DNA from: Atrina japonica
Lineage: Eukaryota; Mollusca; Bivalvia; Pterioida; Pinnidae
Length of the DNA: 64,000 nt
Assembly: GCA_030159075.1 (NCBI GenBank)
Contig: BROG01001151.1
Location: forward strand, 52,276-116,275
Reading direction: 5' to 3'
In this document: one piece after another, positions 23,505 to 64,000 of the stretch
Position numbering within the stretch: the stretch's first letter is position 1
Layout of the letters: every line of letters begins with the position of its first letter
The notes under the pieces: generated by a model
Seen by the model: the letters and a program-made list of their open reading frames with translations, nothing else
The model's database searches: none
What the model was told of the DNA's origin: nothing
Translations under genes and position numbers: made by a program

Positions 23505-23830
23505 CGTGCGGCGTGACTACTCAAAGCCCTTGCCACACGCCGGAGCTACCCTGTAGCTCTGGAGAGGCTCCTTGTGTTTAACGTGTAACCATGATGGAAT
23601 TTGTTACACATGCTCGCCCCTACGGAGTAGGCTTGAGCTGTGGATCTGGTGGTGGCGTTGGGCGGTTTTGGGTCCTCTTCTCCCTGGGTTGGTCGGATCC
23701 CGGATGGGAGGGGCCTTCTGGCAGATCACCGGCCGGCTCCTCTGTCTCTTCTGGCTCTGGTCCGATGCATGTGGAGGGTCCGAGGTGGGGAGTAAGGCAC
23801 AGCTGCAAAATCACAACGGCTATAGAATTT
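23505..23830. other. GC-rich block upstream of the first 1.97 kb duplicate
   Basis: Much richer in GC than its surroundings. Starts near gccacacgccggagctaccc with a perfect hairpin gagctac/cct/gtagctc. The open frames over it look like shadows of base composition. It is probably the older neighbour or 5' part of a mobile element; its right end runs into the duplicated segment. Confidence 0.35.
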
Positions 23831-25757: not shown

Positions 25758-28138
25758 CTTACTCTACTGCCTATCTTGCCTTAATGTAACCTACATAAAA
25801 TAAAAGCCATTACTATATTTTATACAATACTATCACTATTCTGACCTATATATCATCCGGAGAGAGGGGAATCCCTGTGTCAAGACATCGTAAGGGGGAT
25901 GCCTGAGCCAAAATAGTCCATGTGGGATTTCCTCCACCGCTGATTCCTAAGTAACTTGTATTAGGAATATTACCTATTGTGATGTGAATAACATCATCCT
26001 AAGTATATACAAAGTAATAATATTTATTATCTAACTAAACTGTTGGATATCCACCGTCCAGCGGTGGGGCAATCCCTACACACAGGGACTTGTCACCAGC
26101 TAGAAAGGGGGTTCTGACCGGGGTTTAGTCTTAGTGACATGTCTTGGTTATTTAAATTAATACTAAAATCAATAAAATACGCTTCCTAGCTACCTAAGAT
26201 AGGACAGAAGAGTATAACCATGTGGTGATTGTGACTAGGCTTGTCTGTGTTTGATTTTAGGGTCCTACCTGTGCCACCCTCCACTATTTGGACAAACCAG
26301 CTGCTAACCGTGAGGTCGCACCGCTTTTCAAATGGTTATAGGCAGGGTTGGAGTACCACCAACACTTTGAGTGATAGTGTAAAAATTTAAATGTTTACTA
26401 AAAAGATAACCGTCAGATATATTAAAGATGGTATGAATCTTCTCTAGGACATGTATCAAGGCTAGTTGAAGTGGATCTGACCTGTCTAGTCGTAGAAACA
26501 TGTCCTCTATTGAGATTAAATTAATAAATTAAAACAATATTGACGGCAGAAGTGGAAAACAAGGTATATATAGATCCTAAATGTAGTGGAACCGGTTACG
26601 AATTACAGTAATTACAGCCATTAAAAGTTAATGGGATGAAATTGGTACTTACTTATATATTTATCCGTATTTGTACATCCAGTAGGTTTTGTCTGTAGGG
26701 ATTGGTAAATCCATTAAGCTACAGAATTATGGAAGTAACGTGGTGTAGCGTTTAATTCGTTTTGATTTCAGCGCCATACTGGATTTTGACGCTGTTTTGA
26801 GGAAGTGGTTGTAAGGCTTCTTATTTTTTGGTTGATTGTCAGAGATTTGGAAAATCAATGACAATTTTAGTTATTTTGACCTAAGGTTAGATTTACAGGG
26901 ACTATGTAAGGGGTAAAAAATTCGTGAATATTGCTTTTGTATGACTGGAAAGCCAGTTGCACGGAACAGGTGAGGAAAACCATACTATTCATGCTCTGAA
27001 GACAAAACAAAACGTAAATTTTATTATGTATTAGTTAAAATAAATTATTTCCTTTTGGAACTAAAGCCTAAAATAGGATTTTATAGGTTTAGGAAGGGGA
27101 ATTTTAGATAATTATGAAGTAAATAAAAACCATTTTATTTCCAGAAAGTATCATTTGAACAACTTGTGCATTTTCTTTATCTGATTAATTATATCATATA
27201 CAATATGTTACTTTATTACAGCGAATTTATTTTCTTCTATTAAAATATTTATAAACTTTTATTTGACTTTTCTGTATTTATTTGGACTCTAACACTCCTC
27301 TGCCATTGGAGATAACTTAAAATAGGAAACAGTTGAGAGGACTTTTTGTTTATCAAAATAGTAAATTTTGTAACACAACGCGAAGTCAAATACAGATAAC
27401 AAACTCTCATCTGCAGCATTTCCTATTACATAATATCAAACAGTGAATTGTGAGTAATAAATTAAAAAAAGTTTAAAGAAAATGAATGAGCAAAATATAC
27501 CAATATTCTTCTAAGAATACTAATATCTATACTGAAAAATAATTAGATTAATAAAAACACTACCTTAAATCTTAATATACGTGTGTGTGTGTGTGTGTGC
27601 TTGCTCTTGTTTAATAGCGTCAGGGATCAGCGGTGCCGTCGATAAACATATGGGTGTTTTCGACGACGTCCGGTTGAATTTGACTGCTAAAAATCACGAG
27701 CTCTGACCTGTGGATGTACTATGTGACCTACTTTAATGACTGCAGGATGAATGCAAGGTGAGTGCATAATTCACCGCGACCAAAGTGCCCTAAACATATT
27801 AATATACTCACGGTCACATGATCAGTGCATTGTAATTTCTGAACCATTCCGGATCTCGGAAACGATGTATTGTAGCTGTGGTGTTTTGTAATATGTAACT
27901 ACGTTGTAATTGTCTATTAGGAACATGAACTCGCATGATAATGTTAACGTCATTTTAGTATTATTGAACATTTATGCAAATATAGATTTGATAGGGAAAC
28001 TGTGTGCTTTCGTCAATCAGATTGCATGATACATTTGTATATTAATTTCACTTTCTTGAGCCACCCCCTTTCCGTCTTAACTCCGACATTACCTATACCG
28101 GTGTAATATTTCTGCACAACAGACATACAGGCTCAACA
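25758..28138. other. Intergenic and 5' flank of the SDR gene
   Basis: Mostly unique AT-rich DNA. Holds a (GT)n run at 27580-27599 and a slightly GC-richer zone at 25855-26350 with short direct words but no gene. No TATA box or clear transcription start could be assigned; an acceptor-like ctgcacaacag at about 28111-28121 leaves a 5' UTR intron possible. Confidence 0.4.
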
Positions 28139-44510
<16,372 letters not shown>

Positions 44511-44728
44511 CCAGATAACTAAGGCGTTTTTAAATTCTAAATGTTACAACTTTACATTTTTGTGAAATAATACGGAAAGTCTAAATCACATTGATGAGTT
44601 AAACCTAGTTTGTTCTTACTTAAACAGTTTTTCTCCAGTTAATTCAAGTTTTTTTCAGTAACCCACATTAATTGGAGAAAACTGGGTTTAGCAGCGACAA
44701 AATCACATTATATATATATTAGTTTTGG

Positions 44729-44734
44729 AATAAA
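44729..44734 (+). promoter_or_regulatory. Poly(A) signal of the SDR gene
   Basis: Canonical AATAAA 219 bases after the SDR stop, followed by a T-rich stretch, which fits cleavage near 44750-44760. Another AATAAA at about 44813 could be an alternative. Confidence 0.6.
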
Positions 44735-45353
44735 TGATAAAAATGACTTTACTTTTGTTTTTCTTTTTGGTTTTTGACAAAATGTCATTGTCAAACAAAT
44801 TTCTCTTTTAAATAAAATATTTCTCCAACATAACCGAGATAAGACAAGTTACAATAAAACAGGAAATTACCTTTTTCAGTCTCTTAATAATAAAATTAAC
44901 GATCTATATTGTCATTAATTAATTAATCCATATTTTAAAATAAAACAAGATCTTTAAAGACATCTAATACATTTAAAAGCAAACGCAGTTTCATTAGATC
45001 TATTAAATCACAAAATGTATTTCTGGAGGTCAAGGACAAACTTATAACTACACAAAATATTTAAAGAGGCATTAGCTGTGGTTACCACAATTATTCCAAT
45101 TTTAAGCGATAACCGGCTATAGCAATCGTCGAGTTGTGCGCAATCGTCATTTGGTGTATATTTTGGTCTCCACGTTACCCTCAGAGTAAATGAAACGTTC
45201 TGCGCGATATGATATAGTGCATGTATGTTATTAGCCTGGGTTCCTGGTCCAATCTTACTTCGTGTTATCAGCGCAAAACAGGACTGAAAATTATCACGTG
45301 ACCAAGATACCGGATATAGAAATGCCCATGCCCATATTAGTAAACTGAGAAAA

Positions 45354-45482
45354 TGGCGGTATCCATCTCATCCACGCTGAGACTTAATGTTAAAGGTGAT
45401 GGTACACCATCACGTGGGAATCTACAATCTACAGTCCTGGTTCCATTACACACACTTGTACCAGGTACACATTTCTTCTGAT
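45354..45482 (+). CDS. Candidate short ORF or first exon with strong start context
   Basis: gagaaaATGGCGG is an excellent animal start context. It opens 42 codons beginning MAVSISSTLRLNVK, an amphipathic, mitochondrial-presequence-like N-terminus. A donor-like ccag|gtacac near 45464 would make it a first exon. Downstream exons were not found, so this stays speculative. Confidence 0.2.
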
Positions 45483-47921
45483 GTCGGACAACACTACAAA
45501 TATAATTTGTATTTGTAATATTTCTAATATTTCACTATCATCTATGTTGACGGGTAGCCTACTTTAGAAATGAAACATCGGTCGAACCTTCACCTGGCGA
45601 TTTAAATGCTGAAACAATATTCTTTCCAATTTATTTGAAATCAATATTTGATATGATTATTTAATCGTGAATGATTTCTTTCTATCAATTTTGATACATT
45701 TTCCATCGACTCTATCTGTCCTATCGGACTAGAACAAGTGAAGTATACATCTAGTATGAATATAACAATTAAACAACTTATGCATTTACACAAAGTCAAT
45801 GAAATATTGTGTATACAAATAAAATACAGACACTAGATGCGTGTAAATACACACTATTCGTGGAGCATCAAACGTCACGTCCGCCCCTTTTGAATTCCGA
45901 TCCTTGATCTCTGCGCGATGATCTAGCCACGGAAGTTCCTAGTTATGAATGGAAATTAGGCCATGTAGTGTCAAGCATAGTGTAGAATATATCATTTAAT
46001 GCACTGTTTGTTTCGTGGTAGTTCATTGACCGGTGAAATTGACACCGCGTAGGAGATTCACGTTTCACTGTCTGTTGTATATGTCACAATGTTTTGTTGA
46101 TTTACTCCAATTCACATGTTGAACTTTATTTTTTTTTACATATTTTCATTTTATATTGAAACATTTTTCTATGTCTAGAATTAATCGATTCAAACATGAA
46201 GCAAACATATATTGTTTCACCCCTTATTGCAATAAATCGTTATTGAATTTCAGTATAAAATCCAACTGATAAATCAGTAACTACATTTTAACGCATTGAT
46301 ATTCTCAAAACAGTACTTTGGATATTGATAAATGTAGGGCCTGGCATTAGCTTATGTTTGCTCGTATCTGTATTCAAAATGTGCAGGCAATACTGAACTC
46401 CAGGAATTAATTTCGAGTTTGTATTCTAAAATAATATACACGTATAACAATATCTACATTTTCATTTATACTCTTATGTAAATGTTTATGCGCAAATTTT
46501 ATTTCCATCGCTCAGAATATAATTTTCAGATCATCAAACATATCTATGTTTCGCTTATTTTTTAATGTAAGGCCATTCCAAGTGGTTTTTTTTTTTCTAT
46601 ATTTAGCGTCCATCCTAAAATCAAAACCTATCTTTCTATAAGGCAAAACGACAGAAAAAAAAACACGAGACATTTGATGACGTCTAATTGACAGAAACGA
46701 TCGTCTTGAGCATTATAACTTTGGTATTATGTTTATAATATTTTATGAGAACAAATGCAATTTCATGCACATTTATTATTTTTCTAAAACATTAACAAAA
46801 GAAAAACAAAATTAAACTTATAAAAAACATATCTTTGGCACATACTAATAAATAACATATGGAATGTTAGTTTTCACAATGGTGAAAATACTTGTTCATG
46901 TTTGACTTTTCATTTTAGGCCATATTTCAAATTTCTTCTCCACACGTTTTTTATTTCGTTTAATGATCTCAAAATCTATCTATCAGCGGACACTAAACAG
47001 AGAACAAATGGAAATGTCTAATCGTAAATGGTTGAAACCAATATACGGTTTCTTTAAACATGATATATAGAACATGTCGGACCGTTGTAAAATATGTAGA
47101 TGGGACCAGGTTAGCATCCCTTCTGATCGGTCTGATGACAGTGCCGAACATAGACCAAAATTTGATGCCCTTCCCCCGGCATTTGGTGATAGATTCTTGA
47201 GTGTGGCATTAAACAACAATACAACAACAACAACATGAGTTAAATTACATGTAAATACATATGTGTATATCTATAAAATCATATACAGTTTATATAAGAT
47301 TTGTTTTTTTATATTTTCATTTTAACAGACATGTGTTTTACAAATTAGGATCTAATCCTAATGTTATTTATGTTCTAATGCAGCACCAAGAATAAAAAAA
47401 ATATTAAAAAAGACATTAAAAGTTTGTTTTTTGTAACACTCATCAGTACTATAAAACAAAGCAATGGAAACCTATAACAAATTACTCACAAAAACATTAA
47501 TGGTTAATTGGAGAAATTGTATTGAAATTGAATAGGAATTGACTTTGTAAAAACTTTATTTTAAAATGTGGTTTTATATGAATTATATAGAGAAAAACAA
47601 AATGTTGTATCAATTTTAGCACATCACATAAATTGAATTAGATGATCTTTTAAAAAATTATTTTCCATATGTCGCGTGTATTATGGGTGACAAAGAAGAA
47701 CAGATCTAATGTGAGAGAGGGGGGGACAATACTCTAAGCAAAACGTTTACTATTGGCAATATTCTTGTGTACTTGTTCATTACAATGATTACTTTTATCT
47801 TGGTTTCCATACAATGCTGTTCTTTTGTCCAAATTACATTATAGCTGTTTAAAAATTTTTTGGAATTGAGTTGAATTGTATATTAATCAGAAATCAAGAA
47901 AAAAAGGGTTACACTCTCACT

Positions 47922-48150
47922 CAGGGACCGAATGGTTATATCCTAGCGCTTTAAACCTTGAAGTATGTCACCTCTAGTCAGTGCTGGTTGTAATCTGGCT
48001 AGGTTGATATATTGAGAGTGTTTGCTATTTTACTTGCGGAAGGTTGGTGGTCATTTCACAGGTACTCCGTAACTGGGCTCTCTCCTCCACCATTAGAAAA
48101 CTGACCGTCACAGTATAACTGAAAGTTGTTGAGAGTAAAACAACATTCAT
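47922..48150 (+). mobile_element. SINE family B copy
   Basis: agggaccgaatggttatatc head, cacctctagtcagtgctgg, tacttgcggaaggttggtgg, ctctctcctccaccatta, and tail gttgttgagagtaaaacaac. Confidence 0.6.
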
Positions 48151-49774
48151 CACTCTGTCACCGTACCATACATGGTAAACGCGATAAGGGTTTGTTAAGA
48201 AGTACAAATAGTATGGCATCATTCTTACGTAAATGCTGAGTCGACATGGGCGACCTAGATTCCTATCATGGGTGTTGAGGTACGCAGGTACTGTGAGAAT
48301 AATGATGGAAATTCCATTCTAGAGTGCAAACCGATCGTCAACATATATACTGCCTATTTTCATTATATGATACTGTGGATCTGTTCCTTTTTCTTGCGGA
48401 ATCCTTTAGTGATCTCTGTCTCTCACGATTCGGTTTGTCACTTTTGTTTACCAGGTTTGGCATGCGCGAATAGCTCTCCGATTTCTGTCATCATGCAACA
48501 AAATTCAACGAAATTTCATTTCACATGTTAGACTGAAAACAAAGTAAAATGTTTCAACTTATGACAGTATTACATTTGATATTAGCAACAAAAAATGCGA
48601 TTTTCTGTATTCAAATCCAGACAAAAAATTGAGATACAATACCCTTTACGGATGATATACATATACAAGTTTCTTTTCTTTTCATTTTTCGAGCTCGGCT
48701 TAGCGATTACCTGCTGATTATATAAATTCAAACGAGTCAAGATTTTTTGAGGTTTTAAAAAAGTTAATACTGAAAATTTTATCGGCCTACCGGTTCAATC
48801 GTTCAGTGTGCTACAAACGATACACTTTTTAAGAGGGAGAAACAAAAATGGAAAATAAAGATAATAATGAGAATGACATCTAACACGAGTGAAAATCAAA
48901 TCTAATGTGTTTGTGTCCAAAACAAAATTTGATTATTTTCATTCTTGTCAAGTTAAAGTACATTTACAGATTAGTGATGAAATGTACAGGAATAAAAACA
49001 TTTTCTCGACACTAATTATTTATAAGATTAATAGTAGCATCTTATTAATTTACAAAGTTTTTCATCATATTTATGTAAAAATTAATACTATTAATCACAT
49101 GTAGATAATAAAAAAGTCTTTTGACGTGCGTTTGCTTTCTTCCGCATTTTTAAATTCATAAACAAACCTAGATAATACACAAATCTTGTCAATAGCGTTT
49201 TCTTTTTTTTTCCCCCTATTTTTTCAAATTCATCAACATTTTGATTTGAGAATCTTTTGTGAAATGTTTTGATAATTTTAATCATGCGTTCAAAAACTTC
49301 ATGAATGTATCATTGCAAGAGATTGTCTACACACATTTCGGTTCTTGTTAGAGAAAATTTCTTTACTTATTTTACTTATACGTTGTGGACTTCTACTTTT
49401 CACTTTAACTGAAGAAAATGCTACTCTTGTTACAAAGGTCACAAACCGGAACATGTCGGACAATCCTACTGGCTGGTGATCTGTTCTCGACAATATCAAT
49501 TCTCGCCAAAATAAACACATGGGGATATGAATGCAATTGTCTATTTGACGTGAAACCATTATGCAGCCAAGGATTGGTACTTAGCGATAACTAGTCACCA
49601 AAAACTAAAAGTCATAAAGATAATGAACTAAGTACAACAACGTTACGCAGGTCACCATTTAGACCAATAGGTCTATTATTTGGTGGCTTTTAAAAATATC
49701 CCGATAAGAATGTTTTACATGTCGACGATGTCACCAGATTTAGATTCTTACCAGTGCTATTGAATAACGCCAAT

Positions 49775-49960
49775 ATAGTAAGGGTAATTGTATGTGCCAC
49801 ACCTGACCTTGGACAAGGAAGACCGTGACAGTGACTTTGTATGCTCAGCTCATGGCAAAGGAACAATCACAATAGATTTCTAAAGTTTTAGACACGACTC
49901 AGTGCCGGGAATCGAACCAATGACCCTCAGCTTTCGAGACAACGATCTGCCATAAGATCA
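49775..49960 (-). mobile_element. SINE family C-like copy, minus strand
   Basis: The minus strand has ggttcgattcccggcac (B box), then a body with gattgttcctttgcc and caaggtcaggtgtggcac, similar in order to the copy at 38228. Confidence 0.45.
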
Positions 49961-51386
49961 TCATTTCAGATCGTGAACATGACACGTTTAGTGACGAACG
50001 AGATCATACTGTTGACCGTAACAATTTCGAAATCTTTATTTTAACGCGATATTCTTCTAACAACAGCTTGGCACTAAGTATTATATAATTTTACATTGAA
50101 CAGGCTTTAGTATATTACACTTGGTTTTGGGAGATATACACAGTACCAAAATGGTTATTGTTAAGAGGTATCTTTTCTTAAATGTGGAGGGTTGGTAGTA
50201 GGAAAGCCGGCATATCCACGCACGCCGTATTACATTTATCATGTAATGTAAAACTGAGATATAGGAATGAGGTCATGGGTCCTGTATTTGTGAAGTGTCA
50301 CTCAATTATCCTCACGTTGAGCAGAAATAACTGGATGGTACGATGACCTGAAAATATCATTATATATATATATACATTAATATAGTACAGTATATAAAAA
50401 AGAACATAAATACTGTATATATCTGAGAAATTTTTAGACATTAACTTAAAGAATGTGTATTCATACTTCGTCAAAAAGTGGTGAATTAAAAATAGTTTTA
50501 AAGACACTATGTTTTGTTGCAAATCAAAAGAGCATTGACTGGAATTCTTTCAAAACAAAATTTCCTCTTTTACTACTTAGATTGATATACAATAACAAAA
50601 GACAGATATACACAGGTATAAAAGTTCGTAAAATTCTATATATTTTGTGAAACCTGCTGGAGAAACCCAGGTTTGACACTTTTTCAATTGCAATTAATTG
50701 ATTCAACCTTACTATTTGTATATGCATACCACACCGAACTTGATCTTATTTTCACAAAATATATAGGAATGTAAGAATTTGAATTCCTATGTATAACTCT
50801 TTTTTTGTTAAAGTACATCAAGTACAAGGAGAAAAAAATCAAAATGACACATTTTGGATAACACAGCTAATACCCGTTGGAATAATAACCATTACTACTT
50901 CCATATTTAAGATCCTATTTCATCTGACTTTACAATTTAACAGTACAATTCACGGATCAATTGCTGACTTAATTATCGTTCTTTTTTCATTATTTCAGTT
51001 TCATTTGGGAAATAATATCGCAGAGACCAAAATTTATAAAGTAATGAAAATGATCATTTGTCTTAGTTTTAGTTATCCGTATTAAAAGATGAATATGGCA
51101 AGTATGATTATTCTACATATATGATCTTCACTTAATTAATCATAACTTAATCTTCCAGTTGTGAAAAAAGAACAAAAACCTAATATTTCATAGATTATGT
51201 ACGACGTATTTTGACGTTAATGTAAAGATAATATATTTGTATTGTTTCATTAACATAATGTTACTAGTATATATAATAAGTAGATTACACGAAGTACTTG
51301 TAGCGTAACATTGGCGCCTGTTAAATCTTTACAAGAATCAGTACCCTAGGCAAGTATATCACTTAAATTTACTGTTATAATTATTC

Positions 51387-51423
<37 letters not shown>

Positions 51424-51582
51424 ATCTGAAATTAATGACAAATTTGGACTTCTGTGAAAATGAAACTATATAAATATTTGTTTATTAATAGCAGTACTCT
51501 CTTACTAGTAATAATAGTACTGTTTTTTTATTATTATTTAATTATTATTATACACATCATATAAAAGTTATAATCCTCAAAC

Positions 51583-51607
51583 AGTAGTAGTAATAGTAGT
51601 AGTAGTA

Positions 51608-51697
<90 letters not shown>

Positions 51698-51735
51698 ACA
51701 GTAGTAGTGGAAGTAGTAGTAGTAGTAGCAGTAGC

Positions 51736-51766
<31 letters not shown>

Positions 51767-51788
51767 ATAGTAGTAGTAGTAGTAGTAG
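51583..51788 (+). repeat. Long (AGT)n array 143 bases before peptide exon 1
   Basis: About 68 triplets with a few variants (ggt, aac, aag, agc). It may lie in an intron or 5' flank of the peptide gene. Confidence 0.9.
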
Positions 51789-51931
51789 AAATGAAATTCC
51801 TTATTATCATTTGAATTTCACCATAATTTTGTTTCAAGTGATTAGTTTTATTTGAGATCATTTATAACAAAATGTTTGCTTAAGCGTCCATATCCTATTA
51901 ATGTATGAATCTTATGTTTGTTTTGTTTCAG

Positions 51932-54900
51932 GTGTAAAATCCATTCCAACCATGTCCATAACAAAGACTTTTCTTCTTATTTTCGTCGTATTTGGTAAGT
52001 ACAATTTATGATGCTCAAAAACTTACAACCAACATGATAATTAATTTTTGATATTTTTAAATTGATTTAAATTGCCAGCGCGTGCTTTTGATGAGAGATA
52101 ACAAATAAAATGTTGTGTTGCTTCTAAAATCTGTTAGCTTTGGGCGGGGTGATGTCGTAAATTTGAATTGTATAGTTGCTTCCAAAACTGTTAGCTTTAA
52201 GCGGGGCGATGTCGTATATTTGAATTGTATAGTTGGTTCAAAATTATGTTAGTTTTAGGCGGGATGATGTCGTATATTTGAATTGTATAGTTGTTCCCAA
52301 AATGTTTACTTTCGGCGGGGTGATGTATATTTGAATTATAAAGTTGATTCCAAAATCGGTCTTCTTCAGGTGGGATGATGCCGTATATTGAAAATGTATA
52401 GTTGCTTTCAAAGATTGTTTTCTTCAGGTGGGTCATGCCGTATATTGAAAGTGTATAGTTGTTTTCAAATTTCAAACCAATTATTTATTTATTTATTTAT
52501 TTATTTGTACTGAAAGGGCTATTTTAAAATCGAAGATTTGCTAACTCTTATCTGATATATTGTATTAGAGTGTACGAAATACTATTTTTTCTCTTTCTTG
52601 ATAATACGAAAAGAAAATAATTATACACTGGTGTCGAATTTGTACATTTGTGTAGATATAAGAATATTTCCAAAACAAAACAAAAAATTCCAAGATCCAC
52701 TCTGTCAGGCGACTCCCGGTTTTCCTCATTTTTTCAAGATTTTTAGCAGTTGCTGATTTTTTCCCTGAATTTGTCAAATAAAATCCTGATAATTCCTGAT
52801 TTTGTACTTTTTCCCCACCAACAAGTAACATAAAAATGTGTTGAATTTTTTATGATAAAACCTTGTTGTAGATAAGTAAGATATGTTTTAAATTGTAATA
52901 TTTTTTCTGTAAATTTTACATTATGTTGGCAGTCAAAATAGGGTAATTTTCGTGAAAGTTCCTATTAAGAGGGGATGAAGGCGGCAATGTTCGGTGTTTT
53001 GTATTGTTTCATTACTTTTTATATAGAAATGTCCTCACATTGGATTTTAAACTTAAAAACTTCCTGATTTCCGAACTTAGCTCTAGAACTCTGTTGAAAG
53101 ATACGGATATCAGGTTTTGTGTCATTGTCAATGTAAACCTTATATGACCTATGACACTGCACCGTAATTTTCGTGCTTTTGCTCTAACTTGGCAAGCTCA
53201 AAAATGGCTTTTTTATACTAATTTTAATAGATTTTTGTAAATACTATTTTTATTTCATCTATATCCATGGCTATAGCACGTAGAAATAAAGCGTACACTT
53301 GATTTAAAGTTATTATATTAGTTTTTCACTTTAGATTTATCGTGGCCACGGTTTCCTCAACTAACTTATGTATATATGAACTGATACTTGTATTTGTCGG
53401 GCTGTTCCTTAATTTAACGCAGTTGTTCTTCTCATTTCCATTCAATTTGATTTAATGTTGTTTAACACCTCTCTGCATCTTTCAATTTATGTACTTGTAT
53501 CTATACATTAATAATTTGGTATCTAACTGGTCATTTTTCAATATTGTTTACTCGAAGTAAAGTTTGCCAGTTTACTTGCGGAAGGTCGGTGGTCTTTACC
53601 CGGGTAACCGGGGTTTCTCCTCCAGCAATAAAAACTGGACGGCATCATATGACTGAAAGATTGTTGAGTATGGCGTAAAACACTCTTCAAAAGAAACAAA
53701 GTATTCTGGGGTTTTAATCAGTACGTTATCGTGCCTTTTATACTGTGGGGTAAATAAGGGTGGGCGCCATAATAGTTTTCAAGAAGCTTCCTAACTGCGA
53801 GGAATTGGCTCATGCCTCTTTATTGGCCGACCTGTTCTTTTATTCATACTAAGCAGACTTCATTCAGAAACCGCTGAATCAGAAAAGATATATCGACGAC
53901 GTTTTGTCAATTAATAATGACAATTTTCATACATATGTCAATGCGATATATCCCAGTGAACTAGAAATTAAAGATACAACAGAATCAAGCACATACGCTT
54001 CATACTAAGACATTTTACTTACTAAAATTGGCAACTAAGCTATACGACAAACGCGACGATTTCGGCTTTCCCATCGTACATTTTCCACATTTAAGTAGTA
54101 ATATCACACACACAGTCACCCGCATATGGAGTTTATATTTCACAAATGAACCGATATGCCAGGACATGCTCAACATATGAAGATTTCATATACAGATGTA
54201 AACTACTCACTGACAAATGATTGACACAGGGAAATAGAAAACCGCGTTTGATGTCAACGTTTCGCAAATTTTACGGTTGATATAATAGTCTTGTTTGCCT
54301 TTCGTTGCCGGTTGTTGAGACGTCTGTACCAATTGTGACGAGGATTTGTTCCTCGTGCATTTCATTTGGACTTGACCGAGGACTCACGGCGGGTGTGACC
54401 GGTCGACAGGGGATGATTACTCCTTCGTGGCACCTGATCCCACCTCTTGGTTTTTAGAGGTCCGTGTTTGTTCATTTTTGCTGAATTTCTGTCTGTGTCC
54501 TGAACATATTAAGGATTTATACTTTGGTATCTGAGATGTTTTATATCCCTGTTGATTATCTCTTTTGGCGATTTATAATGAATTCTCTGTAAGAACCAAA
54601 ATCTAACATAGAAGTTCCACACTCGCCACATTCGGCTTTGGATGAAACTTAAAGAGAATGATTGGTTCAGTACATAAACACAACGGGTGGGTCTTAATTA
54701 TCATAGTTATGGTTACCATGGAAATGCATTAACCTTATTTTCCCGCCAAATAAGAATATGAACGTTAGCATATTTTGCATTATTCTGTACTGACGTAATA
54801 TTTCGCACTAATAACACCTTTTATATTCTAAATTCTTCAAAAGCTCATATAGTAATCATTTTACAGTGGTTACTTTTAGACGGGTTTTGCTATACATTTA

Positions 54901-57900
54901 GATTTATTAGTTCGCCTTGTGTAATGCCACTTTCTCTTTAGAAAATATGTATCTTTTATAAACTGGAGCTCAACTGATAAAGCCTAACTGACAGAAACGA
55001 TCGTCTTGAGCATTAACTTTTCTGTTTATCTATTATCTATAATTATTATTATTATTATTATTATTACTTTCTTTTGGGGTAAGTTTGCGATTTTCCATTT
55101 TGTTTCGTTGCAGTATGTTCGAATTATGTGGGAAAGTTTGCCAGTTTACTTGCGGAAGGTCGGTGGTCTTTACCCGGGTAACCGGAGTTTCTCCTCCACC
55201 AATAAAAACTGGACGCCATCATATGACTGAAAGATTGTTGAGTATGGCGTAAAACAAAAAATAAAAAAATCGTCGCAGTATGTTTTTAAATGTATTAATT
55301 TTCCTTACTGTTGAATACTTTTTAAAATCTGTTGAATCACTGTACTATTTCAGCTTTCGTACACGAAGGTCAGGGAAGCGCGCCAGTAGCACCATTAGGC
55401 AAGTATTCCGATTTAGTATCTTAAAGATGTATGGTCATTAAAGTGCATTAGCTTTTTTTTCACCCCCCTTTGTTTAGTACTTAAATTAATATACAGTAAC
55501 AAAAAGGAGATATACACACGCATAAAAATTCTTAAGTACCTTTATATTTAGTAAAAGTTGCTTGAGAAACCTAGGTTTGGCACTTTTGCAATTTATCAAC
55601 TCCAACTTATTATTTGTATAAACATGAATACCAAACTGGACCTGATCTTATGTCCACAAAATATATAGAAATATAAGATTTTTATGCCTATATATAGCTC
55701 TTATTTGTTATTGTACATCAAGTACAAGTAGTAAAAGTTGAAACTAACAAAATATATTTTTTTTGGTAAACACAGCTAGTGTTCCGTTAACTTCTCACCT
55801 AAATATACGAAAAATTATAAAGATTTTTACCGTTAAGTCAATTTGCTTACTTCCTGGTTATTCAGTAGAAAAAAACTTATCACATAGTTCTAAAATTTAG
55901 TTTTATTTCAAAAAATTAAATTTAACGAGTCGGTAAGTGCGCTCATAAAAATACAGAACAATAAGTGCTAATGGTATTAATTATATTAAGAATATTATCA
56001 ATGAATTAAGTTTTTTCAGAAATTCAATAATAATATACCATAATTTGAAATAATATACTTTGAACATTCAAACATATATTTTACAGGATCAATGAAAGGT
56101 AAGAGATTTAAATTATGTTATCAATTTGTGGCTAAATTAGAATTTGTAATATAGAAATCTAGACAAAGAAAATTAAAGTGTCACAGCTACCAAAGTATGT
56201 TATAAATCAACTTATTTTGAATTACAGTCCCAGTATAAATGTTGTTATTTGTTCTGTTTCCTTTCAAATCGAAATGAAAGATTGGGGCCTCATGCCATCA
56301 TAATTAATCAATACTCAAGCTCAACTATCATTTGATCATTTGGACAGAATCATTTGTACAATTACTGGTAGTGAATGATTAGGAACCACATATTGTTATT
56401 TTTTCATCTACATAAACACAATGAACCAAATACATGTTTTACTATAAAAATGAAACGAACGTCTCAAGTATAGTATTCAAAATTTGAGTATTTACTCAAA
56501 TTGATTTTTTGGTGTTTCTGAAGTTTTCTTCAAATGAGCATTAATTGTCATACTCATTTACAGTTGTTTATTAAATTTATACCACAATGATCAGCTGCAG
56601 CTTACATTCTTTGTGTTTTCATGTTAACCATTTGAACCCTGGTGGGGCCTCTGGTCCTTGGCTGAGTGTTTCGAGTATCGCACCTCACTTCCGGTCAGTA
56701 CAGGTTTGAGCCCCCCTGTAACATTGAAAATTTGTTAAGTGTGACGTAAAACACTCCAATACTAAAACATTGAACCTGGTGGTCCGAGGCCGACAACTCC
56801 TCCACTCTGAGCTCCCTATGGTTATTACGCCGAAATATGAAAATTATATAATTTAATTTAATGATTTCGATTAGATCTGTTATAAAATTTTCACTTTCGG
56901 TTTTGGAGATTTTGTTTCATTTACTGACTCCAAGTCCTGTCCATTCCTGTATTCATCAACATTCACTTTTCCGTAATAAAAAGTAATCACCTGTTCACCG
57001 GTAAGCATAGTATTCAGCAGGCAAACTACATGTATTTAGGTTCATTTACAAGTGGTAAAAACGCCGAGAATGAAAATAATCAAGAAACGTTATATGACGA
57101 TATGCCAACCTATTGTACATTTATGTCTCTGGTTGCAGGTTGATATGAAGTTTTATTTACCTGAAGTATTACTTTCCAAAGGTCGCACATGAGGGTAAAC
57201 TTCTGAAACTGCTGAGGGTAAACTACAATTGGGGACATAAATTGTTTGTTATATCGACTCGAACTTTCTAAAAATAAAACAAGTTGATTAAGTGTGTTAA
57301 TATTTAATGATAAATAAAAATATCTAATCTCATCTTTAGTTACCAGCTGAAAACGTATTCGTCTGCTATTATTGTTATGATTTCTGCCACGATGAAATAT
57401 AACTCTGATTGACATAAAAGCGAGTTTCCCAAGAGGGTACGCGCTCCAGGATGATATTATTTTTTCATTCCCTGGGATGCGTGTTCCAGGGTAGTATGAT
57501 GTTTTGGAAACAGGCCATGTCATGTGATTTAGCAATTCATGAAGACTATATATATGAGGTATAATAAGATATACACACAAAAAACATTATGGCCGCATTA
57601 CCGGCCGCCAGGTTTTACCAACTTTTGCCGTCAGTGTTCAGAGGTCAAGATTATAAAACGTTAGTATACCTTACTCAGTTTAGCAACTTTGAACCCAGGA
57701 GTAATCAGTCATTCAGTTAAATTATTTACCAGCATATCGAAAGTTTTAATGGTTAAAGAAATTTCGATCGATTGACTAAAACGTCATCTGATTCAGCGTA
57801 CATTGAAATTGACAATTCACTTATTTTCTCAGGTTTCGTAGCCGCAGCGGCTCCCGCAGACACTGTTCCAGGATATCCAGCACATCAAGGTATTTACATG

Positions 57901-59333
57901 TATATGTCTGTATCATAAACTGTTCATTTGAAGGAACACGTGTTTGTCATATATTTTGATAAAAGACGTTTACTTCTGGTACAAATGTTCACCATATTGG
58001 AGTCAATGGATTATGTCAAATATTTGGAAGCTTTTTTTATTGTTGTTTAAAGTCCCACTCAAGAATCTTTCACTCATATGGAGACGTCACCAAATGCCGG
58101 TGAAGGGCTTCAAATTTTGGCCTATGCTCGGCACTTACGGACTTTGAGCAGTGATGGTTCTTTAACGTGCCGACACCAACTGCGACACGGGACCTCGAGT
58201 TTTACTGTCTCATCCGAAGGACAGGAAACCAATCTGCCGCCGGCTGGACGCGAACTCACGACCTCACGATCAAGAGTCGAGCGCGCTACCGACTGAGCCA
58301 GGCCGGCTCTGTTTGGAAGAAATTTTGAAAATCTATCTTAATTTTTTATCAATCTATATTTCACGTGTTGATTCACATATTTTGAAATAGTATGGTCAAT
58401 ATTTTATATTTACGTACAATTTGTATAATTGTGGCTTTTTCACACTTTGTGCGTGAGGTATCCCGACAGACTTACCTTGTATCTTAATGATTTTATATAG
58501 ACTGCAGTGCCATAAAGCCATTCCAAGTATTTTTCTCTATTCAGCGTCCGCCGATAGATAGGTTTGAAACCATAAAACACACCAAAAAAAAAAAAAAGAC
58601 AAACATCTAGATGGGAAATCTGGAACATAGCCCTTAAATCAACAGTTAAACATCAAATTTATTTTCATCATTGTGAAAACTATCATTTTTTGTATTACGT
58701 ATGTATTAGTATGTACCAAAACCATAGCTTTTATCAATTTATTTTTTTCTTTGTTAACACATGGAGAAAATACTTTAAAAGTAAATTTGTTATACTAAAA
58801 ATGTTTTTTCTTTTGTTTAGTGTTTATATTTTTTGTTCTTGATAGAAAGATAGGTGGACCTATACATAAAAAATGGAATGGTGAAAGTTAATGAAAAAAC
58901 AAGTATCCTTGTACTTTCTCTTTATAGAAATTATTCTTCTGTGTATGTTTAAGTTTTAAACTTCTCAAAAGAAAGTCACCGTTTTACAGTGGGTACTCTA
59001 AGATGGATTTGGCGATGCATTTAGGTTTACTATTTCGATTTGTAGGATACCACTTCGGAACTTTGGACACCTTTCGGAAATATACATTTATACTAAATTC
59101 GAGCTCAACTGATGAAGTCTTATTGACCAAAACGATCGTCTTGAGCAAATATTTAGGACAAATGGGCCATTTTCTATCTTTTCACCATAGTGAAATCACA
59201 CCCCTGTCCTCTTCGTGCTTCCACTAACGCCCTCCACCGTTGCCGTCCATTCTACCTTTCCCATGTCATTCCTATGCTTCTCAAAACTTAAAATATACCT
59301 CGGATACCAAAGTATAAATCTTCAGGATGTGCA

Positions 59334-59426
<93 letters not shown>

Positions 59427-61590
59427 AATCTGGTGAAATATGGGCAAACATGGACCTCTGGAAATAAAGAGGGGGATTCAGGTACCATGGGTCGTAAGCT
59501 TCCCCTGTTTAACGATCACACCCACGAGGAACGAAATCCTTCGTCACAATTAGTACAAACGTCTCAACAACCGCTATTGAACAGACAATTCAACATTTCA
59601 TTTAATTAAACAGAGAAATCGTAAATAGGACTAATATAACGACCAAAAAAATTGAAAAACAGCGACATCAAACGCGGTTTTCGATATTTCTGTGTCAATA
59701 ATTTTTTTTATATAAATGTAATGGGGAAATGGCGTTTGTTCATAAACTTATGACATGATGTGCACTTTGTATAAAGAACTAGCAACGCGTAGGAAACGCC
59801 ATATTTCCATTTCCCCTCCACCATCGTCTTACTTAAGTGCAAATTTTAAAACAATTTTACAACAAGATGGTGACATCTCTATATTAGTGAACATTTATTG
59901 ACGGGATGTAAAAACAGTAATCATTAATTCTGGAAAACAGTAACTATTGATGACTGAACATAACTTAATCCACCTAAAACACTCTCATAACAAAAGGAAA
60001 CCATAATTTGGTATACTTTGTATGGTTTATTTCCAAAATTATGTTTCATATGCGCCGTCCTAATAGAGGATTGAATTTTTAAAATAATATTACGAGTAAT
60101 AATAATACCCTGCTTCAAAGTTGTGCGGATATAATGGGATCACCCTGTCTATCTGTGGACGCAACCTTGTCATCGCAACTTCGACACTAATGAATTGATT
60201 TCAATGATACTTTGCACAATGAAATATCACATTACGTAAATTTGCATAAGAGAAGTGAATTGATGTTAAATAAAATTATTATTTGAGTTATGGCCCTTTG
60301 GATTTAGAGTTATATTCCATATGCACGTGACACCTTGTCATTGCAACTCCTTCTAGAATTATGGATTTATTTGAATGAAAATTCACACAATAAAAAGTTT
60401 GAATGAAGAAAATGAATTGCTATTTAAAACTTTTTCACGTGATTTATGGCTAATTAGACATTGATTGTTTTATCCATACCTTTGACACCGTGTCTTCACA
60501 CTTTTCCATTATGCATTAAAATAGGTTTGCATATGTTACAGCGTCTGTGTTGTTTTTTAAACACTTTATTCTTTGGTATTTCAAACAACGCCTGATTACA
60601 ATTTCTACAATACGAGTGTTAAAATCAAGTATAAGCTATCGTGAATCCTGTTAACTATTAGAAACATATGTTAGAAATAAAGACATGAAACCCTTGTCGT
60701 CCTGGTCGTTGCCATTTAACAGACTTTTTCCGTTGCAGCTATCCAAAAACGATCGGCACCACTAATGAATGAAGAAACCTTGACTGAAGAATGAGTGAGG
60801 AACTGGTAAGACAAAAATTTTATTATGTTAAGATATGAAATCTTATATGTGGAATGGCAATGTTGGTTACTTCAATATTTAAGTCAATATGAAATACACA
60901 TTAAAGTCACTTTCCCGTACAATTATTGTAATAATTGACATTTTCTTTAGAAAATCATTCTTAAGGTAAGGAAATGAAAATTATTTTAAAAATACCGTCG
61001 TATTAATGGAGTTATTAACGAAATTAATTTTGAAAGCTGAAATATCCTTCGGTAAAAGATGTTACATTCCATATAATGAAAACCTTACCGGATTTAAGAT
61101 TATCAGCCAGTCAGTAAGGTCTTTCTTTTATGTAATGGCACATGCTCTAATCGCTTTACCGCCAGCCAATCAGCGAGCGTATCATTAAACTCGACGTACA
61201 TGTCTAAATTGCAATCGCAATCTTCAACAAATTAATATAAATCCGATCTTTCACCGATTCCGTTTTCTGATATGTTTGTTTAAAATCCTTAATATATTAT
61301 GATATTTTCTCTCTTGTCCATATTTCAGTGGATCTTTGGGAAGTGACGATATTTCGGGCAATACTGGACAACACGGAACAACATCGTACAGTAGTTTATA
61401 CTCTATTGTAATCTACATGTATATACATATATTTACTTCCTTGTCACCACGAACAGACGAGTTTATATTCTAAAAGATATAATTAGAATATCTTTATTTT
61501 CATTTAGACACTTATTAATCTTCATATGTAATCATAAAATCATATTTCCATAACTCTGTACAAATTATTAAATAGATTTAAAATGTTATG
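51932..61590 (+). CDS. Small predicted secreted pro-peptide, 70 aa, micro-exon gene
   Basis: Not recognised as a known family. Coding exons: 51952-51994, 55354-55398, 56087-56098, 57833-57889, 60739-60794 (213 nt, 70 codons plus TGA). A 5' UTR part begins at the acceptor at 51932, and the 3' UTR is split, continuing at 61329. Residues 1-17 form a hydrophobic signal sequence ([17 protein letters not shown]), with cleavage likely near Gly22-Ala24. The short mature part is Ala/Pro-rich and has Lys56-Arg57, a convertase site that would free an acidic 13-residue C-terminal peptide beginning SAPL. All four coding introns are phase 1, and the three middle exons (45, 12, 57 nt) are multiples of three, so any could be skipped without a frameshift. 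Intron 2 uses a GC donor. Neuropeptide, antimicrobial or mantle-secreted peptide are all open. The linkage is inferred from phase and splice consensus and needs a transcript. Confidence 0.62.
51952..51994 (+). CDS. Pro-peptide exon 1: start codon and signal-peptide core
   Basis: ATG follows a 20-base 5' UTR remnant after acceptor tttgtttcag. It encodes [14 protein letters not shown], then donor ttg|gtaagt. A hydrophobic run right after a Lys is a classical signal-peptide start. An upstream 5' UTR exon must exist and was not located. Confidence 0.7.
52095..52470 (+). repeat. Minisatellite of about 58 bp, six to seven degenerate units
   Basis: Each unit has ttgtatagttgcttccaaaa, then gcggggtgatgtcgtatatt. 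In peptide intron 1. From 52500 to 53550 only AT-rich DNA and a possible dispersed repeat at 52680-52830 are seen. Confidence 0.75.
53561..53700 (+). mobile_element. SINE family B 3' part
   Basis: Headless copy: gtttgccagtttacttgcgg, ggtggtctttacccggg, and tail gattgttgagtatggcgtaa. Nearly identical to 55123-55262, so the two are recent relatives. Confidence 0.65.
53860..54540 (+). mobile_element. 5'-truncated retroelement copy, plus strand, RT plus 3' tail
   Basis: The longest copy in the window. RT fragment, then untranslated tail with gtcgacaggggatgatt, cctgatcccacct, aggtccgtgttt, and the terminal atactttggtatctgaga. It defines the element's 3' end. It lies in pro-peptide intron 1. Confidence 0.6.
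53870..54240 (+). pseudogene. Reverse transcriptase relic (YIDD motif), broken
   Basis: Reads [11 protein letters not shown], then [13 protein letters not shown], a stop, and after a frameshift [17 protein letters not shown] is the metal-binding core of a reverse transcriptase. The downstream motifs are ones I know from a retroelement family common in molluscs and amphioxus, with a Penelope-like palm and thumb order (inference). Stops and frameshifts make it non-functional. Its 3' flank, 54240-54540, matches the retroelement tails scattered through the window. Confidence 0.6.
55123..55262 (+). mobile_element. SINE family B 3' part
   Basis: Near-identical to 53561-53700. Preceded by (ATT)n at about 55040-55065. 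It ends 90 bases before peptide exon 2. Confidence 0.65.
55354..55398 (+). CDS. Pro-peptide exon 2 (45 nt, GC donor)
   Basis: Acceptor actatttcag. It encodes [15 protein letters not shown], finishing the signal peptide and its small-residue cleavage zone. The donor reads ttag|gcaagt, the standard sequence of a GC-AG intron; no GT donor lies near in frame. Phase 1-1. Confidence 0.6.
55490..55870 (+). repeat. Diverged direct repeat with 50575-51010
   Basis: Shared words in order: atacagtaacaaaa, gagatatacaca, gagaaacc-aggtttg, ctgatctta-gt-cacaaaat, gtacatcaagtacaa, acacagcta. It lies just inside peptide intron 2. Confidence 0.6.
56087..56098 (+). CDS. Pro-peptide exon 3: 12-nt micro-exon
   Basis: The 12 bases gatcaatgaaag lie between acceptor tattttacag and donor gtaagag, both strong. 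They encode GSMK with split Gly codons at each end (phase 1-1). Gene finders would normally miss it. Confidence 0.55.
56641..56765 (+). mobile_element. Short SINE family B copy lacking the body
   Basis: Head ggcctctggtccttggctga, cacctcacttccggtcagta, then directly the tail gttaagtgtgacgtaaaaca. Confidence 0.55.
57110..57580 (-). CDS. 156-codon ORF inside pro-peptide intron 3, minus strand
   Basis: Unusually long for AT-rich intronic DNA (468 bases, no stop). It includes [16 protein letters not shown] and [20 protein letters not shown]. Small inverted repeats (ccctggga...ccaggg type) lie inside the DNA, which points to a repeat rather than a gene. No family is recognised and no splice context is needed. 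Confidence 0.18.
   Translation of the reverse strand: MCVYLIIPHIYSLHELLNHMTWPVSKTSYYPGTRIPGNEKIISSWSAYPLGKLAFMSIRVIFHRGRNHNNNSRRIRFQLVTKDEIRYFYLSLNINTLNQLVLFLESSSRYNKQFMSPIVVYPQQFQKFTLMCDLWKVILQVNKTSYQPATRDINVQ
57833..57889 (+). CDS. Pro-peptide exon 4 (57 nt)
   Basis: Acceptor attttctcag and donor caag|gtattt, phase 1-1. It encodes [19 protein letters not shown], an Ala/Pro-rich spacer. Its higher GC content than the flanks supports coding use. Confidence 0.6.
58025..58312 (-). mobile_element. SINE family A, well preserved, minus strand
   Basis: The minus strand starts agccggcctggctcagtcgg (A box), then gaggtcgtgagttcgcgtcc (B box) and the body shared with 5229-5502. It ends in a tail like gagtgggactttaaacaac. 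In peptide intron 4. Confidence 0.72.
58975..59152 (+). repeat. Dispersed repeat D, plus strand
   Basis: ttttacagtgggtactctaa start, taggataccacttcgg-like middle, gagctcaactgatgaagtct and aacgatcgtcttgagca end. A second copy is at 54855-55025. Confidence 0.55.
59300..59710 (-). mobile_element. Retroelement tail copy expanded by (TA)n
   Basis: The tail starts with cggataccaaagtataaatc and is interrupted by an 89-bp (TA)n at the spot where other copies have only gtccaggatatatgt. It then continues with caaatctggtgaa, acggacct-like and caggtaccatgg words. It lies in pro-peptide intron 4. Confidence 0.55.
59336..59424. repeat. (TA)n array inside a retroelement tail
   Basis: 89 bases of pure TA between aggata and caaatctgg of the tail. 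Confidence 0.95.
60130..60520 (+). repeat. Dispersed repeat of two degenerate units of about 170-180 bp
   Basis: Both units carry ttgtcattgcaactcc-like, atgaattgatttcaatga-like and cacaat(g)aaa words. The type is common in molluscan genomes (recollection). Confidence 0.45.
60739..60805 (+). CDS. Pro-peptide exon 5: dibasic site, C-terminal peptide, stop
   Basis: Acceptor ccgttgcag. It encodes [18 protein letters not shown], then TGA at 60792-60794, then 11 bases of 3' UTR to donor ctg|gtaaga. Lys-Arg precedes an acidic 13-mer. The stop is so close to the junction that nonsense-mediated decay would not be expected. Confidence 0.62.
61329..61590 (+). other. Probable 3' UTR exon of the pro-peptide gene
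   Basis: Begins after acceptor catatttcag. It is AT-rich with no ORF and has ATTAAA at 61567-61572 as the likely poly(A) signal. The end is approximate. Confidence 0.45.
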
Positions 61591-63144
61591 TGATGTTTTT
61601 CATATTTTCTGAAAAATCATTAATGTTTGAAATAATCTATGTTTTTTTTAACATGATATAAAGAATTTGCCGGGCCGTTGTAAAATATATAGATGGGATC
61701 AGGTGCCATGGATGTTAGCGTTTCTACCGATAGGTCACATGCGTCTTAGAGTCCGGAGTCAAATTTATGAACACATGCTGAAACTTAACCCTCTCAACCC
61801 TTCAGACCATAATAGACTGGTCTTAACAATAGAAAAGAGCATACTATCTTGATTTTCAGGGGTGAAAGTGAAAAATAATTCGTATCATTAGTGATCATTT
61901 CACATTGTGTACAAATGATTAAAATTATATATACAATGTGAAAACTATCGTGATCCCGGCACTTTGCTCTTAACCTTTCTCCGAAAGAATTCGGACTTTG
62001 TTCCTTGTTTTTGGTCAAATTGCAAAGCAAATACAGGTCTTTGAAATGTAATGTATGTCTGTCTGTCTTTCAGTTTGTTTGCGTCAACAATGCGGTTTAG
62101 CTGTTGGGTTTATCTCTGATGTGACAAAGCCGATAAGAGCATCACTGTAACGTCACAGGGTGATAGAACATTGTTATGGCATTAGTTGATTATGGTCTTT
62201 ATTTTTTCAACTTAACCTTCACCTTTGACTGTCGAATCCCAATTAGAAAATATTACTTCGCAGTTTGGCCTGACGTTATTTAGCATTTTGTTGTTTTGTT
62301 ATTTTTTTCTTCAATTCAATAGGCAATTAAGACTTTCATCCCTAAATAATTAAGTGATATATTCTTTTTATATTGTTTTAGACCGGCCAATTATGCTCTA
62401 GAGGGTTCAAAATGTAAAAACTCAAAGAAAAATAAACAAGATGTATTCGTTAAAGAAATGCTATCAATTTGGCCTCATTCTAACATGAATGCTGAGTTGA
62501 CATGTGCATCATTAGCCTCGTTCCGTTCCAATCCCGATGTCGATCATTAAGTTTTACGTTCAGTTCTGACACCGGTAAGATTTATTGTTGTTGATGTAAG
62601 TCATGTAAAGTACCTCAAAGTTCGATCTGTGTAATGGACAGTGAACATTGCTTAATTGACCACGCCTGTCATGTGACGATACCTCAGTTTAATGTCTTAC
62701 CCGATAAATACGAAACATTTAACCTACTTCTTATTGTGACCACTTGACAAAGAACAGTCCTCAAATGATTCGAATGTAGAACCCTTTCTTTGCAGGGCGG
62801 GTACTCTTACTGTACCATCATCGCTTTGTCGAAAGTATGTCGAAATTATTGTAATATATATTATCTTTGCCAAATATAAGGCGTGAATGAATTATTTTGT
62901 CAAAATCACGGTAGAAGCAAAAACCAATTGCTACAAGATATTCAACCTTGGTGGCATACAAATATATTTTCTTACTCTGAAATTGAAAAAAATCCTTACA
63001 CTTAATCTTAATAAATCTAGCTAAATAAATGTTCTTATAAAATCATTTTCTAGCAACGCGAATGCTTTACCACTATGATTAGTTTTGTTTTTTCATTACA
63101 TCTAATAATAATTCGAATTCTTTTGAGAGTCAATAAACCTTCTA

Positions 63145-63335
63145 TTCTGGTATTGACCTTGATTGAGCCCCCGACTGACTAATTTTTGTGAAAAAAAAAT
63201 TGCCAGTGTACTTGCGTAAGACCGGTGGTCTCTTCCCGGGTACATTGTAACCAGGTTCTTTCCTCCGCCAATGGTGGCCCCCATATAACTGGAAAAAATT
63301 GCTGAATGTGGCATTAAACACTATTCAAGGTCATA
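63145..63335 (+). mobile_element. SINE family B, plus strand
   Basis: tgccagtgtacttgcgtaag, ctcttcccgggtacattgta, and tail ttgctgaatgtggcattaaa. Confidence 0.6.
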
Positions 63336-63392
63336 ACATTGTTTAAATCACAACTGATTTATGTGGCTTTGTTCATATAATCATTTATTGAA

Positions 63393-63644
63393 TTTTGAAT
63401 GGTGTTTTACGCCACACTCAACAACTTTTCAGTTATATGATGACGACCAGTTTTTTAATGGTGGAGGAGAGACCCCGCTTACAATGTACCAGGGAAGAGA
63501 TTACCGGCCTTCCGCAAATAAACTGGTAAACTTTCTCACAAAAATCAGCTTAAGTTCCAGCGGGGATCGAACTTGCGCTGACCGGAAGTGAGAGAGTTCA
63601 AGGTTCAAAACGTGATGCTTTAACCAGTCGGTCACGGAGGCCCG
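63393..63644 (-). mobile_element. SINE family B, full length, minus strand
   Basis: Reverse complement reads gggcctccgtgaccgactgg head, then the full body and the tail ttgttgagtgtggcgtaaaa at 63400-63420. The best-preserved member in the window. Confidence 0.7.
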
Positions 63645-64000
63645 GTGTTGTAGCATAGACCCCTCCACCCCCATAGAGCTACATATCCGTTTCCAGTTCT
63701 ATTATTAGAAATCTATCAATCCATATAAGCCAAAGACTTAACAGATCAACTTTAATTTTGGGTTAAAAAATTAAATAATTTAAATCTGGTATCAAAATTC
63801 ATTAAATACAATCAAATCTTTGGCGATATATTTCATTGATACATTAAGTTGAGAATAAGCAAATATATTTGGAAACATATTTCCGATTTGTTAATGTTCG
63901 ATTTGCTTGTCCAATACATACACGAAAATATTGTAATCATTATTAAACATAGAGTTATTCCCCAGTACATTGGAATTGTTTTCTTTGTTTGTTTATTGTT

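Follow-up and report, generated by a model that had tools for sequence, protein, structure and literature searches.

A candidate gene with short phase-1 exons for a small secreted pro-peptide in the bivalve Atrina japonica

In animal genes for proteins with a signal peptide, phase 1 is described as the commonest intron phase, with a peak near the cleavage site, and a G at the exon end together with the ag-g junction belongs to the splice consensus, hence split codons that start with G (PMC1626468). The layout closest to that of the locus treated here is described for the myticalins and modiocalins of mussels. According to PMC5577615, the myticalin precursor is composed of a signal peptide, a central peptide, a Lys-Arg (KR) site and an anionic tail, and an intron is located just before the ATG. 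The antimicrobial product of myticalins is the central peptide preceding KR (pI above 11, more than 10% Arg) and the acidic tail is a pro-region, which is described also for mussel defensins, mytilins and myticins (PMC5577615). A further system is provided by the micro-exon genes of flatworms, for which small secreted-looking products, an absence of homologs and symmetric short exons are described: in schistosomes, up to 75% of the gene consists of exons of 3-36 bp (PMC10399815), and in tapeworms an operational rule calls for at least seven exons, at least half of them shorter than 70 nt and divisible by three, with a run of at least four (PMC7653826).

Here we describe a candidate gene on the plus strand (51932-61590) of a 64,000-nt stretch of the Atrina japonica assembly GCA_030159075.1 (contig BROG01001151.1), which is called the window below and in which all positions are counted. 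Like the animal signal-peptide genes treated in PMC1626468, it has coding introns that are all in phase 1 and lie in part around the end of the signal peptide, and split codons for Gly and Ala; it stands apart from them solely by its small exon 3, and its introns are 0.7-3.4 kb long. We give about an even chance to the reading that this bivalve gene is lineage-restricted, encodes the small precursor of a secreted peptide and follows the layout that such genes usually have in animals. For now it is a plausible orphan gene of common layout, so far unstudied. If transcribed, it would be a small secreted peptide gene of the kind that homology-based annotation would overlook, and its 12-nt exon is hard to detect without transcripts.

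Exon structure and predicted product

Splice scores given below were obtained with splice-site matrices. Exon 1 (51932-51994, acceptor 11.6, donor 8.4) contains 20 nt of 5'UTR, the ATG at 51952 with A at -3, and the first 14 codons up to a phase-1 donor; judged by eye, these codons form the hydrophobic core of a signal peptide. Because a strong acceptor lies only 20 nt before the ATG, a 5'UTR exon further upstream is implied; this exon was sought and could not be placed, and the TATA-like motifs between 44601 and 51931 (16 in all) were too numerous to pick one. Exon 2 (55354-55398, 45 nt, phase 1-1, acceptor 6.2, net score 9.5 with the coding term explained below) supplies the signal-peptide end and the probable cleavage site, and terminates at a GC donor (TAG|gcaagt) with a score of 4.65. 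An in-phase GT donor at 55368, 30 nt upstream of it, scores higher (8.2) and defines a rival short form of 15 nt (55354-55368, phase 1), which lacks ten residues. Exon 3 (56087-56098, phase 1-1, acceptor 8.0, donor 10.6) is a 12-nt micro-exon adding SMK and a split glycine, and exon 4 (57833-57889, 57 nt, phase 1-1, net score 18.0) is Ala/Pro-rich. Exon 5 (60739-60805, acceptor 7.8) carries the KR convertase site, the acidic C-terminal 13-mer, the TGA at 60792-60794 and the start of the 3'UTR. Since a strong donor at 60805 (9.5) is followed by an acceptor at 61329 (7.1), a 523-nt intron within the 3'UTR (60806-61328) is probable, together with a non-coding last exon (61329-61590) that has ATTAAA at 61567, about 20 nt before the predicted 3' end at 61590. 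Further ATTAAA motifs are present at 60900 and 61184.

The joined coding sequence from the ATG to the TGA has 213 nt and encodes 70 residues. All four coding introns (3359, 688, 1734, and 2849 nt) are in phase 1, and the first two interrupt codons 15 and 30, so that phase-1 introns are found near the signal-peptide end. The five-exon frame, the four phase-1 introns, the inner exons of 45, 12 and 57 nt, and the Lys-Arg site before an acidic 13-mer had all been claimed in the original prediction and were reproduced in the joined frame and its translation, with the borders 51932-51994, 55354-55398, 56087-56098 and 57833-57889 and the acceptor 60739 at AG/GT or AG/GC sites. The GC donor of exon 2 and its in-phase GT rival had been overlooked there, and the last exon had been drawn as a single block (60739-61590), of which the acceptor holds whereas the probable 3'UTR intron lies inside it.

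Exon skipping had also been proposed to keep the frame, and this is correct: eight alternative forms (seven skip patterns and the short exon 2) all end in EETLTEE. The use of phase 1 throughout, frame-neutral skipping and split codons starting with G are, however, one property, since phase 1 together with the splice consensus brings about the other two. These two have therefore been discarded as evidence, both being expected on the grounds described in PMC1626468. The exons are frame-neutral as claimed, but they are not fully exchangeable, because the last part of the signal peptide is encoded by exon 2.

The frame, the splice motifs and the local surplus of phase-1 exons with a coding-like score (described below) are observed, whereas transcription of the gene and cleavage and function of its product are inferred. 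Signal peptidase prefers small residues at -1 and -3, and a signal peptide of about 22 residues would be cut near HEGQG|SAP, where small residues occupy these positions; cleavage is thus expected near residue 22. A furin/PC-type convertase would then cut after KR and release the acidic 13-mer and a peptide of about 33 residues that is rich in Ala and Pro. The central peptide has a pI of 6.5 and a charge of -0.7 without KR, a pI of 9.7 with KR, and one Arg in 35 residues, and the pI of the tail is 4.1. As a default, one constitutive mRNA would be made, though all exons are left frame-neutral by the phase-1 introns. The likeliest variation would be a choice between the two donors of exon 2, because alternatively spliced genes of human, nematode and Arabidopsis are described as enriched in GC donors (PMC2490688). 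Loss of exons 3 and 4 would leave the signal peptide untouched. This does not hold for exon 2, in which both the last part of the hydrophobic core and the expected cut are located.

GC content is high in exon 2 (56%) and in exon 4 (58%), both of which lie in sequence without repeats elsewhere in the window, and exon 2 has four CpG. The GC content of exon 4 is matched by 0.6% of unmasked 57-nt windows; of the 169 candidate exons that are 40-63 nt long, 11 also have a value of at least 55%, and high GC is therefore not decisive. The first 15 nt of these two exons (55354-55368 and 57833-57847) agree at 11 positions in register, a level reached by 0.11% of 200,000 random AG-flank pairs, six exon pairs having been compared. 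This similarity may be a faint trace of exon duplication.

Coding-like exons against chance

The most serious competing reading is that splice-like motifs of AT-rich intergenic DNA make up the chain by chance, in which case some pieces, such as exon 1 or exon 4, may belong to other transcripts or to none; we give it a considerable probability, lower than that of a secreted precursor gene. A list of 697 candidate exons (9-200 nt, both strands) was ranked by splice score, and exons 1, 3 and 4 took ranks 2, 8 and 46, while exon 2 was at rank 466 (116 with the GT donor). The plus strand has 59 phase 1-1 candidates of 9-150 nt, and in this set exons 1, 3 and 4 ranked 1, 3 and 4, and exon 2 (score 10.8) far lower. 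Motifs cannot prove an exon of 12 nt, and strong candidates of 12-15 nt are found also at 27746 and 60951. When regions were simulated with a third-order Markov model and phase 1 alone was allowed, the splice-only score of the five-exon chain was reached in 45 of 200 simulations, and that of the chain with the GT donor in 12 of 200. When any phase was allowed, the two numbers were 170 and 90 of 200. The score of the five-exon chain was also reached by two of 14 minus-strand slices with phase 1 only. The best splice-only chain of the region differs from the five-exon chain. Splice signals alone are therefore not above chance, and motif strength does not prove the gene.

The signal exon is by itself unremarkable as well. 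Exons having an ATG followed by a hydrophobic stretch and a donor of at least 6 are present at six places on the plus strand and ten on the minus strand of the window, and exon 1 is the least hydrophobic among the six.

The picture changes in part with a coding term, which compares generic amino-acid frequencies with base composition. With phase 1 only, the score of the five-exon chain (51.6) was reached in two of 200 simulations and that of the region's best chain (64.3) in none of 200; with any phase, the corresponding numbers were 172 and 14 of 200. Overlapping minus-strand slices of equal length were less favorable: with phase 1 only, 51.6 was reached by five of 16 and 64.3 by none of 16, and with any phase the score of the region's best chain was reached by eight of 16. 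Real DNA is noisier than the simulations. When the end and phase of exon 1 were given, a phase-1-only gene-finder picked exons 2, 3 and 4 and the stop exon plus two extras, and the acceptor and stop of exon 5 were recovered by the automatic chain. A candidate exon added by this chain (55114-55158) sits mostly within a repeat copy; the repeat has two copies in intron 1 (53559-53701 and 55121-55269; GTTTGCCAGTTTACTTGCGGAAGG...).

Phase-1 exons that look coding are locally in excess, which speaks against a chance assembly. The interval from exon 1 to exon 5 contains just three phase 1-1 candidates of up to 100 nt that have a net score of at least 9, and these are exons 2, 3 and 4; simulations gave a mean of 0.14 and at least three in one of 300, figures that flatter the claim because the threshold and phase class were picked with the claim known. 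Seven minus-strand slices contained 0, 0, 0, 0, 1, 0, and 1 such exons. With any phase, the region has four candidates with a net score of at least 9, three of them being exons 2, 3 and 4, against a simulated mean of 1.15. Exon 4 is the top phase 1-1 candidate of up to 100 nt in the window, and no other such candidate on either strand has a net score of 14 or more. In a robustness scan over thresholds of 4-9 and length limits of 60, 100, and 200 nt, the observed count of 3-5 was reached in 0 to 9 of 150 simulations, and the minus strand gave 0 to 3.3 candidates per 8.7 kb; the excess over real DNA is thus clear only for the higher thresholds. Taking all of this into account, we lean toward a real gene, roughly in the five-exon form. 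A secreted pro-peptide gene, as the original prediction proposed, here of a bivalve, is the best reading of the signal-like N-terminus, the phase-1 introns, the KR site, this excess and a neighbouring dehydrogenase gene with bivalve sequences as its best named matches, although the parts of the precursor may have been named in reverse.

Comparison with mussel, flatworm and neuropeptide precursors

The comparison with myticalins was made by layout and chemistry, and a protein database search returned no scored match for the 70-mer. The order of signal peptide, central region, KR and anionic tail is the same in the candidate, which also has in common with myticalins and modiocalins the phase 1 of the last coding intron, and with myticalins the intron just before the ATG, as implied by the acceptor of exon 1, the upstream exon presumably being 5'UTR only (PMC5577615). 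Compared with the myticalins described in the same source, the central peptide of the candidate is not cationic or Arg-rich, its signal and central regions are spread over five exons instead of one, its last intron is placed before KR and not after it, and its tail has 13 residues instead of 35-75. Membership in the myticalins was rejected on the pI and Arg content of the central peptide given above, and the near-neutral chemistry of this peptide lends no support to an antimicrobial role. By analogy with the mussel antimicrobial precursors, it may rather be the middle peptide that is the secreted product, with the acidic tail as pro-part; the original naming, in which the Ala/Pro-rich part was a spacer, would then be reversed, because the product of myticalins is the central peptide (PMC5577615).

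The locus had also been likened to the micro-exon genes of schistosomes, where skipped exons give rise to protein variants, and a bivalve counterpart of them, in which regulated skipping of symmetric exons would produce a family of secreted variants, has several points on its side. The seven skip patterns keep the frame, the hydrophobic core and the KR tail; four exons in a row (63, 45, 12, and 57 nt) have lengths below 70 nt that are multiples of three, which agrees with the loose criterion used for tapeworms (PMC7653826); and exon 2 combines a GC donor, of a type enriched in alternatively spliced genes (PMC2490688), with an in-phase GT rival. The product is small and secreted-looking, without homologs found, and the short exons are symmetric, as described for schistosome and tapeworm genes (PMC10399815, PMC7653826). 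Against this, the candidate has few exons, only one coding exon of up to 36 nt, and no family found. Such exons make up 12 of the 213 coding nt, or about 6% (about 15% with the short exon 2), compared with up to 75% in the class (PMC10399815). The parallel is weak on this count, and the strict micro-exon gene label was rejected. The tapeworm run of four is present, and the number of seven exons is reached only if the 5'UTR exon, which could not be located, and the probable 3'UTR exon are counted. Skipping of exon 2 would delete the signal-peptide end, frame-neutrality is explained by phase 1 alone, and no paralogue is seen in the window. We consider such a counterpart improbable. Slightly less probable still is an independent origin of a micro-exon style outside flatworms, in which the in-phase short exons and the two exon 2 donors would give precursor variants sharing the signal core and the KR-acidic tail and differing in the central peptide. 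If the exons were really mixed, this would be a mollusc parallel to the flatworm micro-exon genes.

Neuropeptide precursors typically carry an amidation signal, or several copies of a peptide set between dibasic sites. The single Lys-Arg site immediately before the C-terminal peptide is consistent with a neuropeptide-like precursor whose active product would be the acidic 13-mer. The candidate, however, has one KR, one peptide copy and no Gly-Lys/Arg, the 13-mer lacks a C-terminal Gly for amidation and is acidic (pI 4.1), and in the mussel defence peptides described in PMC5577615 the acidic part that follows KR at the C-terminus is a pro-region. We therefore judge an active 13-mer quite unlikely.

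Searches for relatives and the surroundings of the locus

A search of 5.8 billion proteins, bivalves included, which needed exact five-residue words, gave no relative for the 70-residue product; words were shared with one candidate, and nothing scored. This is compatible with a chance assembly of motifs as well as with a lineage-restricted gene: short secreted peptides evolve fast, and because of this and the exact-word search, absent relatives are weak evidence either way. The 70-mer had no PDB match and no Pfam family, and neither an Rfam search of 44600-64000 nor a tRNA search gave anything useful. Three peptide words of the product had no occurrence in the 5.39 million papers searched, and a literature search for micro-exon genes together with bivalves found no paper.

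Upstream of the candidate, a short-chain dehydrogenase gene (Pfam adh_short / adh_short_C2) is located on the plus strand at 35120-44510, with about eight exons joined by eye. Its three best named matches, among the best 120 of 7855, are from Argopecten (53%), Pinctada (54%), and Ylistrum (52%), and further down these 120 are Mactra, Saccostrea, Ruditapes, Mytilus and gastropods, with insects and mites too. Identity to the best bivalve relatives is 50-54%, none of the matches listed being above 54%.

A tandem duplication of about 4.73 kb was observed at 23776-30476, where blocks lying 4721-4735 nt apart form pairs of 98-100% identity; this is either a recent event or an assembly artefact. The first 20 kb of the window resembles a long multi-exon gene; four of its ORFs had no Pfam family, and one ORF had no PDB match. 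The CpG observed/expected ratio is 0.19-0.33 over these first 20 kb and 0.73-0.98 beyond (20000-64000), a contrast that would be expected if only the body of this first gene were methylated in the germline. Within the same part, degenerate CACA-rich repeats with spacings of 17/19 nt (ACAAACAATGGACACACACAGCATGTACAG) extend over about 2.4 kb at 11400-13900.
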